Below are positions 61,002 to 64,000 of a DNA stretch of 64,000 bases, piece by piece. The position numbers and the translations under genes are program-made. Source of the DNA: Planctomycetota bacterium (GTDB taxonomy: Bacteria; Planctomycetota; Planctomycetia; Pirellulales; Pirellulaceae); the NCBI GenBank assembly GCA_016872725.1, contig VGZC01000033.1, forward strand, positions 1-64,000, given 5' to 3'. The notes beneath the pieces were generated by a model. The model searched no databases, was not told the origin of the DNA, and saw nothing but the letters and a program-made list of their open reading frames with translations. The stretch's first letter is position 1. Each line of letters opens with the position of its first letter.

Positions 61002-61124
61002 TCGACCATACGGGAAGCGGGATCGTTCCCAGTTTCGCGAAGGCCGCGTGCGACCGATCTCCGCCTGAGACCGTACCGAAGGAAACGGGACGAAACGAGT
61101 GCCGGCCGTGGGGACGCCGGCATA

Positions 61125-61133
61125 TGCTACAAT
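61125..61133 (+). promoter_or_regulatory. Possible extended -10 promoter of panB
   Basis: TGCTACAAT fits the extended -10 form TGnTAnAAT. No -35 box is seen at the normal distance. It would give a leader of about 120 bases before panB. Confidence 0.35.
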
Positions 61134-61260
61134 GGCGCCGAACATGGCCGGCGGCGACGGCAAAGTCGATGGGCACCGCTCAGCCGAACGCCCCTTGTCG
61201 GCGCCGCGATGGGCGCGACAGGGGGCCTTTGAGCCGGAGATTCCGAGGGGATCGGCGGAA

Positions 61261-62064
61261 ATGACTTCGATCAAACAAGTGTCGATCCAGACGCTGCAGG
61301 ACATGAAGAGTGCGGGCGACCGGATCGCCATGTTGACCGCCTACGATTTCTTCATGGCGCAGACGCTGGACGAAGGGGGAGTCGAGATCCTGCTCGTGGG
61401 CGATACGGTCGGCATGGCCGTCGGCGGGCATTCGACCACGATTCCCGTGCGCCTTGACCAGATCGTTTACCATGCCGAAATGGTGGCGCGCGGTGCGAGT
61501 CGGGCGATGGTGGTCGGCGACTTGCCCTTCCTCACGTATCAAGTCACCACCGAGGATGCGGTGCAAAACGCGGGGAAGTTGATGCAGGCGGGAAAAGTCC
61601 ATGCGGTGAAGCTCGAAGGAGGCCGCTCCATGGTTCCGATTGTCAAGAGCATTCTCCGCGCCGGAATTCCCGTGATGGGGCACCTTGGATTGACGCCCCA
61701 GTCGGTCTACCGTTTTGGAGGCTGGAAAGTCCAAGGTCGCGACGCCGTCAGCGCTCAGCAGGTCCGTGATGCGGCTCTCGCCCTGCAGGATGCGGGCTGC
61801 TTCGCAATCGTCCTCGAAGCCATTCCCGCCGACCTGGCGCGCGACGTGAGCCAGTCTCTCGACATTCCGACGATCGGAATCGGCGCGGGACCGCACTGTG
61901 ACGGACAGGTTCTCGTCACTCCCGATATGCTGGGTGTCACCGGGTTCACGGCACGATACATCAAACACTACGCTCAGCTTCGGACGGTCATCCACGATGC
62001 CGTCCGGCAATATGTGGCCGACGTCAAGAGCGGATCGTATCCGACCGAGCAACATGCGTACTAG
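61261..62064 (+). CDS. panB: 3-methyl-2-oxobutanoate hydroxymethyltransferase
   Basis: A 267-residue enzyme that makes ketopantoate from 2-oxoisovalerate and methylenetetrahydrofolate, the first step to pantothenate and coenzyme A. Family stretches are IAMLTAYDFFMAQTLDEGGVE with the metal-site pattern LLVGDTVGM, VKLEGG, VMGHLGLTPQSVYRFGG and IGIGAGPHCDGQVLV. Length is normal. The ATG at 61261 is the family start. Its TAG stop overlaps the reversed stop of the SHD1 gene in a CTAG palindrome, so the two genes meet with no gap. Confidence 0.97.
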   Translation: MTSIKQVSIQTLQDMKSAGDRIAMLTAYDFFMAQTLDEGGVEILLVGDTVGMAVGGHSTTIPVRLDQIVYHAEMVARGASRAMVVGDLPFLTYQVTTEDAVQNAGKLMQAGKVHAVKLEGGRSMVPIVKSILRAGIPVMGHLGLTPQSVYRFGGWKVQGRDAVSAQQVRDAALALQDAGCFAIVLEAIPADLARDVSQSLDIPTIGIGAGPHCDGQVLVTPDMLGVTGFTARYIKHYAQLRTVIHDAVRQYVADVKSGSYPTEQHAY

Positions 62065-63074
62065 CTGCGTTTTCGGCGGCGGAACGCATAGATCGAGCCG
62101 CCGCCGCCAAGCAGGGTGACGACCCCGATTCCGGCACGGATTAGGCGGGCGAAATTCACGCCGTGTACTTTGACCACGGTGCCCGTGGAATTGGGTGCCG
62201 ACAGATCCACGGTTCCCGCCGTACCACCCTGATTCTCCCAAGCAATACCGCAGCTGGGACAATGGGTCTTGCCCCGGGATTCCTCAGCGGTGAACTCCCG
62301 CCTGCAATTCGTACATGTACCGATCTCTTGAAACTGAAACGGAGCGTCGCCACCCAACGGCGCCGGTCCGGAACCCGGACCGTTCGCGCCGGGCCCACCC
62401 GGGGTGGGTCCGCCGATGTCCGGCAGTCCCGCGCCTGGGCCATTCACTCCAGGGACGCCTGGAAATCCGTCCGTTCCCCCAAGACGGCGGCGTTCCATCG
62501 CTGTTCCGGTCATGCCGCCTGGAATCCCACTGGAAATGCCGCTTCTCGACATTCCGGAAAAACCGATGCCCGGAAACCGGGAATTCACGCCATTCGGCGG
62601 TGAAGGAAATCCGGACGACGTCCCGGATCGCTCGTCGTCCGGGGACGCTCCGGTTGGAAAACCCGGTCCGCCTGGAATTCCCGGAGACGGGGATCCTCCA
62701 GATGCGCCGGGATAACCGCCAATTCCCAGGTTGCCCGGAATGCTCCCCGGCGCGCCACCCAAGCCCTGTCGTCCATTGGGGAACGACGGTGCCTCCGGAA
62801 AACCACCGGGCATGCCACCCGGCATTCCGGCGTCGGGCATGCCGCCGTGAAGGCCGCCTGGAAAACCGCCGGAAGGCCCACCCTGCAAACCGCCAGGGAA
62901 TCCCCGCTCGAAATCGGTCGCGTCGCCGCCCGTTCCGCCCGAACCGGAGCCGAAATGGTTACTGTGGGCTCGCGCCACCTGGGGAATCGTGTCCTCTTCA
63001 CCGCGTTCGGTGAGCACGTCGCGCACGTACTGCTGATCTTCGTCGCTCAAATCCTCGAACGGTAGATTCGCCAC
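62061..63074 (-). CDS. Downstream part of a split SHD1 protein: Gly/Pro-rich region, zinc ribbon and membrane anchor
   Basis: A frame of 337 residues from a GTG at 63074 that begins inside an SHD1 domain (NLPFEDLSDEDQQYVRDVL). A long Gly/Pro-rich region (about 45-250) with repeats such as GGFPGG and GIPGG follows, then a zinc ribbon (CTNCRREFTAEE...HCPSCG) and a C-terminal membrane segment with RRRKRS. The frame is open upstream of the GTG to the TGA at 63156-63158, and the 27 codons between complete the SHD1 domain (FVRVYGNNVILNRGG). It is therefore the second part of one gene split by a stop. Whether the GTG is used is unknown. Confidence 0.7.
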   Translation of the reverse strand: MANLPFEDLSDEDQQYVRDVLTERGEEDTIPQVARAHSNHFGSGSGGTGGDATDFERGFPGGLQGGPSGGFPGGLHGGMPDAGMPGGMPGGFPEAPSFPNGRQGLGGAPGSIPGNLGIGGYPGASGGSPSPGIPGGPGFPTGASPDDERSGTSSGFPSPPNGVNSRFPGIGFSGMSRSGISSGIPGGMTGTAMERRRLGGTDGFPGVPGVNGPGAGLPDIGGPTPGGPGANGPGSGPAPLGGDAPFQFQEIGTCTNCRREFTAEESRGKTHCPSCGIAWENQGGTAGTVDLSAPNSTGTVVKVHGVNFARLIRAGIGVVTLLGGGGSIYAFRRRKRS

Positions 63075-63155
63075 CCGACCTCCGCGATTCAGAATGACGT
63101 TGTTCCCATAAACGCGGACGAATCGCGCGTTCGCCGAATTCCCTCGTTTATCCGT

Positions 63156-63557
63156 TCAATTGCGGATCTTGGGGGTGCCGACCTTTCTCATCGGGGACGT
63201 CGAACGTGCTTCGCCGGTTGAATCTCTGGGATTCCTCGGAGTCGATTCGCGGGGAGTTCCGAGGGAGTTGTTGGCGTCGTTCGATGCGGGAGCGGCTCCA
63301 CGATTCGACAGATCCACCACAAGATCTCGATCCGAGGGTCCCAGGCGGTTGATGGGAACGGAGACCTCGGTGCCATCCTTGCGGAACTTGACGGCGGTGC
63401 CTTCCAGCCGCAGAAATTCGGCCTTCATGGTGCGGCCATCGACGTCCGTCCAAATGCGTTCTTCCGCCGCCATCTCCGCAAACGGCCGGAAAGCGCTGGC
63501 CCACGCCACAAGAGCCATTGCGAACCGAACACGATTCCGGGATACCCTACGCAACAT
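63156..63557 (-). CDS. Upstream part of a split SHD1 protein
   Basis: A 133-residue exported protein with a signal peptide (MALVAWASAFRPFAEMAA) and one complete SHD1 domain: RIWTDVDGRTMKAEF, then VKFRKDGTEVSVPINRLGPSDRDLVVDL. A Ser/Asn/Pro-rich linker leads to the TGA at 63156-63158. The codons after it continue in the same frame as a second SHD1 domain, and the TGA falls where the first domain has Trp (R-x-W-T-D). GAGG lies eight bases before the ATG. SHD1 proteins of planctomycetes normally have two such domains, so this is probably the N-terminal piece of one longer protein. Confidence 0.75.
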   Translation of the reverse strand: MLRRVSRNRVRFAMALVAWASAFRPFAEMAAEERIWTDVDGRTMKAEFLRLEGTAVKFRKDGTEVSVPINRLGPSDRDLVVDLSNRGAAPASNDANNSLGTPRESTPRNPRDSTGEARSTSPMRKVGTPKIRN

Positions 63558-63934
63558 TGGCTATCCTCTACCAAGTGTGGGAAATGAAGCCAATCTTGGA
63601 AATCGCGCCGAACAACCGCACTACGGGCGCACGACTTCCCTCTTGGAATACCGTGGAAATGCCTGTTTCGGCGTGGAGTCGACTCCTGATAAGACGCGGC
63701 TCGCGACCATGAAGTGGAACCCGACAACCACTCCATCGCGGAATATCCAAGCCAAGTATACAAGGAACTCCACAGCGCCGGCAACCTCGCGACAAACGCG
63801 AACTCGTCCAGCCTTCGCTTGTGGAGAATGGAACAGCATCGCCCCGCATCGCCCCAGGGGACACCCGCATCGCCCCAGGGGCCCCTGGGCCCCTGGGACA
63901 CCCGGCGCCCCTGGCCCCTGGGCCCCTGCGCCGT
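63558..63934. other. Region between the SHD1 gene and the right inverted repeat, with GC-rich short repeats
   Basis: About 375 bases without a gene I can support. A TATACT (minus strand, 63760-63755) could be a -10 box for the SHD1 gene, without a matching -35. From 63836 to 63930 the sequence is made of short repeats, listed separately. Confidence 0.5.
63836..63930. repeat. GC-rich low-complexity repeat cluster
   Basis: GCATCGCCCC occurs at 63836, 63846 and 63867, followed by several copies of GCCCCTGG and its complement CCAGGGGC, for example GGCCCCTGGGCCCCTGG near 63880. The stretch is largely self-complementary and ends five bases before the right inverted repeat. Confidence 0.75.
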
Positions 63935-64000
63935 AGCTGTCCATTCCACAAGAACGGGCGTTGGTGGAAATCGACGGGTCGGTTATCAAGTGGGGCATGG
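63935..64000. repeat. Right copy of the perfect 66-bp inverted repeat
   Basis: Exact reverse complement of 38-103. It runs to the last base of the window and so is probably truncated. On the plus strand it holds an open frame beginning with GTG at 63964 (VEIDGSVIKWGM), directed outward, the same as the left copy. In this copy a TAG (63933-63935) is next to the start of the shared part. Confidence 0.93.

Follow-up and report, generated by a model that had tools for sequence, protein, structure and literature searches.

A short stretch of the minus strand near one end of the window—the whole 64,000-nucleotide piece of planctomycete DNA that was analysed—carries two open reading frames that share one frame and are parted by a single TGA. 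The locus raises the question of whether these are two genes, one gene broken by a mutation, one gene with a wrong base in the assembly, or one gene whose TGA is read as an amino acid. The reading we favour, and hold to be probably correct, is a single gene broken by a recent nonsense mutation, in which one base change turned the Trp codon of the second of two SHD1 domains into a stop; the encoded protein would be exported and probably anchored in the membrane. An ordinary cause, either a nonsense mutation or an assembly base error, is the most likely explanation, rather than a special reading of the code.

On the minus strand, 63557-62061 forms one frame with TGA 63158-63156 as its sole inner stop; 133 codons precede this TGA, and 364 codons without any further stop follow it up to the final TAG at 62063-62061. 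Both the coordinates and the continuity of the frame agree with the sequence-only reading, which had described a single frame split by one TGA. ATG 63557 is the first possible start of the frame, because a TAG stands two codons 5' of it (TAG CCA ATG). The parts of the gene are listed in Table 1. A promoter scan gave one sigma-70-like site upstream of the gene (63784-63755; 0.3 expected), and a terminator scan gave three terminator-like sites within it (2.2 expected), none of which lies at the TGA.

Table 1. Features of the interrupted SHD1 gene and of its convergent neighbour, in window coordinates
Feature	Coordinates	Strand	Basis or remark
Whole interrupted gene	62061..63557	-	497 sense codons, one inner TGA, final TAG; order of parts: signal-peptide-like N-terminus, SHD1, linker, SHD1, Gly/Pro-rich linker, zinc-ribbon-like motif, C-terminal hydrophobic segment
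Product of ordinary termination	63156..63557	-	133 aa, one SHD1 domain, probably exported
Signal-peptide-like N-terminus, residues 1-31	63465..63557	-	Judged by eye
First SHD1 domain, residues 34-82	63312..63458	-	Trp36 intact; Pfam match and predicted structure
In-frame TGA at near-invariant Trp, residue 134	63156..63158	-	Frame and homologue alignment
Second SHD1 domain, Pfam stretch 129-182 of the read-through frame	63012..63173	-	TGA cuts the first strand
GTG, first in-frame start past the TGA	63072..63074	-	27 codons on; GGAGG four bases before
Gly/Pro-rich linker, about residues 195-408	62334..62975	-	Read from the translation
Zinc-ribbon-like CxxC...CxxC motif, residues 414-442	62232..62318	-	Below Pfam cut-off
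Hydrophobic C-terminal segment, then RRRKRS; likely membrane anchor	62082..62144	-	Judged by eye
panB (ketopantoate hydroxymethyltransferase), convergent	61099..62064	+	TAG overlaps TAG of the SHD1 gene

The identity of the domains depends on reading across the stop. With the TGA read as W, the protein reaches 38.8 bits against PF03983 (SHD1) in two stretches; this lies above the curated cut-off of 23.7 and places the protein in the SHD1 family. The first half by itself scores 21.5 bits, which is under the cut-off, and the half after the stop, taken alone, is not recognised as SHD1 at any E up to 1. An AlphaFold2 model of residues 30-195, made with three aligned sequences, shows the same unit twice, each time four strands with a helix (mean pLDDT 74.4, pTM 0.39, linker below 50), with the Trp of either SHD1 copy placed in the first strand. 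The top PDB match of this predicted fold is 2HBP, the SHD1 domain of Sla1 (probability 1.00, TM-score 0.76 by target length), at an E of only 9.5e-3; no match in the fold search reaches 0.001, and the list also contains many other small barrels. The model is thus of a predicted SH3-like SHD1 fold. A sequence search of solved structures returned nothing at E up to 1, and a PF03983 search of the organism's own genome was uninformative, giving no match although the domain is present there.

In yeast, the SHD1 domain of Sla1 binds peptides. The likeness to Sla1 lies in the two window domains, which both match Pfam SHD1 when read through, and in 2HBP being the best fold match; the window protein differs in being bacterial and in having a signal-peptide-like start, two SHD1 domains and a zinc-ribbon-like motif. 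Extracellular bacterial proteins that join SHD1 with other domains are mentioned in PMC5906684.

The sequence-only reading had also placed the stop on the conserved Trp of the second SHD1 domain, and alignment bears this out. In a four-row alignment (A1), Trp134 is invariant, as are three cysteines of the zinc-ribbon-like motif. We matched a profile of the second domain, built from four rows of which one is the window read with W, to the ORFs of 47 loci; the window itself accounts for two of these (L001 and L018), and several of the rest repeat a single gene. Among the 78 non-redundant stretches obtained, first and second domains alike, the Trp column holds W in 74 (the window's own first domain included), F in 1, a gap in 3 and Cys in none. 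Of the three gaps, one belongs to the window after its stop and two to matches that start past the column. Where stretches reach the end of the profile, W is present in 30 of 32, the exceptions being the window and one match that starts past the column.

A family-wide search covered 241 genomes, 208 of which gave a match, with at most six candidates scored per genome and with relatives drawn from other genera. Apart from the window itself, none of the nine top-scoring matches (E 1.7e-183 to 6.5e-36) is interrupted by a stop. The stop of the window consequently falls within a frame that is open in relatives, as a nonsense allele would; a TGA conserved in relatives, the mark of programmed readthrough, was not seen among the matches listed, which are from other genera only. 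Eight weaker matches among those listed do contain stops, and all eight were fetched. Recurrent inner stops in SHD1 genes were considered on this account and rejected, since by eye each of the eight is an ordinary gene end just past a C-terminal SHD1 domain. These are gene ends that the profile has overrun, so the inner stop is peculiar to the window among the matches listed.

Because the relatives are uninterrupted and carry Trp at the column of the stop, the two halves are, judged from sequence, one gene. Comparison with relatives had been named beforehand as a means of telling one gene from two, and the nine uninterrupted matches speak against two. A second gene starting after the TGA is, in our estimate, very improbable. 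The in-frame GTG at 63074, with GGAGG four bases before it, does offer a conceivable start; however, the GGAGG lies in the codons of a GGR motif that is also present in the nearest relative, and the nearest relatives are single genes. A product begun at this GTG (63072..63074) would have no signal peptide, and its second SHD1 domain would be cut to about half. We rejected two separate genes on these grounds—the relatives are single, and the first in-frame start past the stop is inside the SHD1 domain. The genome also appears to hold this gene once: a search with the read-through protein gave 1 match only (24 of 24 candidates scored), and a further search for a second copy found none among the best 40 of 77 candidates scored, the other matches all falling on a contig-end repeat some 70 bases long.

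The part of the gene that follows the stop has not visibly decayed. Conservation of the second SHD1 domain is 47-48% between the window and three relatives, against 43-57% among the relatives themselves; for the first domain the corresponding ranges are 35-51% and 33-43%. The zinc ribbon stands at 59% between the window and its nearest relative and at 22% and 30% for the other two (20-28% among relatives), and the C-terminal tail is poorly conserved throughout, at 24-28% against 24-30% among relatives. There is no sign here of relaxed constraint after the stop, the second domain being as conserved as it is among relatives, and this is as expected if the stop is very recent. An undecayed second half implies that the stop is recent, or absent from the organism, or tolerated.

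A tolerated stop could be one that the cell reads. Reassignment of UGA to Trp was rejected on stop usage, the presence of RF2 and the features of tRNA-Trp. TGA is the commonest stop in this genome, ending 121 of 189 non-overlapping ORFs of at least 300 codons (464 kb); RF1 and RF2 (prfB) both score over their cut-offs. Among 47 matches in a tRNA search there is no UCA anticodon and one tRNA-Trp, with CCA. This sole tRNA-Trp has A9, G24 and a five-pair anticodon stem (positions counted by hand), and it shows none of the three UGA-reading features named in PMC13092985. That source describes a tRNA-Trp (CCA) with a 4-bp anticodon stem; the present case resembles it in having a UGA at a Trp position and a tRNA-Trp with CCA, but differs in that the stem keeps five pairs and A9 and G24 are unchanged.

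Functional readthrough of UGA by an ordinary tRNA-Trp, so that both a short soluble form and a long anchored one are made, was among the three possibilities offered in the sequence-only reading, next to a recent nonsense mutation and a sequencing error. We regard it as unlikely, and it found no positive support. An intact and conserved downstream frame is what functional readthrough would also give, background reading of UGA by the cell's own tRNA-Trp has been shown in E. coli (PMC13092985), and Belinky et al. (PMC7918605) argue that bacterial genes with in-frame stops are in many cases no pseudogenes, and that such stops are mostly short-lived. Against this, no relative among the matches listed shares the stop, RF2 is present with TGA as the main stop, and tRNA-Trp CCA has none of the three changes described for UGA reading. 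The RNA past the stop is also unremarkable; the 89 nt from the stop are no more stable than shuffled sequences (z 0.43), and four shorter pieces fold no better than shuffles (z -0.58 to 0.94). The lone stop in an otherwise intact and conserved gene does recall the in-frame stops of PMC7918605; however, the large-scale set in that source required stops in at least two species, whereas the stop of the window is found in no relative among the matches listed. In the portions of the literature returned by searches on SHD1 in Planctomycetes, on the full name of SHD1 with bacteria, and on readthrough in Planctomycetes, no such case was found.

A more specific form of this proposal is that the TGA is a lineage-specific leaky stop, which would yield mostly a free exported protein with a single SHD1 domain and, in a minority of cases, a two-SHD1, zinc-ribbon, membrane-anchored form with UGA read as Trp. 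We give this slightly less credence than functional readthrough in general. If it were true, one base would set the ratio of soluble to anchored SHD1.

Selenocysteine, which the sequence-only reading had left aside, is the other amino acid that a UGA might encode. A tRNA-Sec family search gave ten matches, three of them over cut-off; the top match has a UCA anticodon by ARAGORN, and the other two over cut-off fall on tRNA-Leu and tRNA-Ser genes. With its pieces summed, SelB also passes its cut-off. The tRNA-Sec (UCA) is located at L125:1501-1600, and SelB lies elsewhere in the genome. As both tRNA-Sec and SelB are encoded, the source planctomycete probably makes selenoproteins.

This machinery is one thing that might recommend selenocysteine insertion at this site. 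The other is a hairpin past the UGA which, with a G opening its loop 23 nt from the UGA, fits the loose model for bacterial SECIS elements given in PMC13188914. We nevertheless consider such insertion negligible in probability. The same loose model is satisfied at 107 of 213 frame-ending TGA and 216 of 400 inner TGG control sites, so that such hairpins are just as frequent there; the controls came from frames of at least 400 codons with overlapping frames not removed, the inner TGG being sampled from such frames. The window UGA lacks the stricter GG/GU loop, which 45 of 213 and 112 of 400 controls possess. A survey of selenoproteins required Cys homologues (PMC1088965); here the homologous position is Trp (74 of 78 stretches) and never Cys, and the site, a conserved Trp in an SH3-like domain, is not a known redox site. 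Identity as a selenoprotein was rejected on the Trp of the homologues and on the control rate of SECIS-like hairpins.

There remain the two ordinary causes. Under the first, a base error, the gene of the organism would be intact and the TGA would be a wrong consensus base or the allele of a minority strain; we judge this possible but rather unlikely. The contig is 64,033 bases long, with the 5' end of the SHD1 gene 476 bases and the TGA 875 bases from its end, and both contig ends fall in a dispersed repeat, which probably broke the assembly. A break in a repeat 476 bases from the gene start leaves room for a base error, and such an error would fit the otherwise intact frame and the undecayed second half. 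Assembly errors are a known source of internal stops; Cooley and Wright (PMC11017572) attribute many internal-stop pseudogenes to them, and the present gene resembles those spurious cases in its internal stop, its fragmented assembly and its closeness to a contig end. The TGA itself, however, lies outside the repeat, and the window genome differs from the cases of PMC11017572 in the absence of inner stops from the matches tested elsewhere in it. These were sulfatase (26), PSD1 (6) and ABC (58) matches, with inner stops in 0 of 90; the 90 are matches rather than genes, some being pieces of one gene, and two of the ABC matches are below cut-off. Since 90 of 90 family matches are free of inner stops, the assembly does not look error-rich.

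We also scanned 464 kb by codon usage for inner stops, which gave 23 candidates. In 17 of these a start codon lies within 13 codons, and we treated them as tandem genes; the remaining six, by eye, resemble gene ends or tandem genes. The scan says little, because TGA 63158-63156 itself would escape it (low power); GC by codon position was likewise uninformative for the Gly/Pro-rich part.

We rank a real mutation, carried by the sampled strain, above a base error, because the other conserved genes tested are free of inner stops. What stands of the sequence-only reading is one gene interrupted at the Trp of the second SHD1 domain, as its uninterrupted homologues indicate; readthrough by tRNA-Trp gained no positive support. 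With a nonsense mutation, RF2 would for the most part end translation at the UGA, leaving a probably exported product of 133 residues that has one SHD1 domain but is not anchored in the membrane. The second SHD1 domain, the zinc ribbon and the anchor would be lost with ordinary termination, and the full-length protein would be lost as well, or would arise only in the small amounts that background leakage at UGA allows.

The locus matters mainly as a caution on annotation—for the two ORFs, the annotation should show a single interrupted gene in place of two proteins. Should the stop be kept in several strains with the downstream frame intact, the gene would become a natural test case for usable UGA leakage in bacteria.

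Some minor observations concern the surroundings of the gene. The dispersed repeat lies at 63929-64000 and, in the opposite orientation, at about 1-103, and it recurs in at least eight other places in the genome at 89-97% identity (best 40 of 77 candidates scored). At the contig end it contains the short frame LSIPQERALVEIDGSVIKWGMDEKSLDNLREE, and the likeness extends further in at least two other copies. A GC-rich run of short repeats at 63822-63940 (minus strand GGGGCCCAGG, GGGGCGATGCGG and similar) lies between this contig-end repeat and the upstream region of the SHD1 gene. On the other side of the gene is panB, which by eye is absent among the flanking ORFs of at least 200 aa near the genes of the two nearest relatives; in the window, panB and the SHD1 gene converge, and their TAG stops overlap in the palindrome CTAG.
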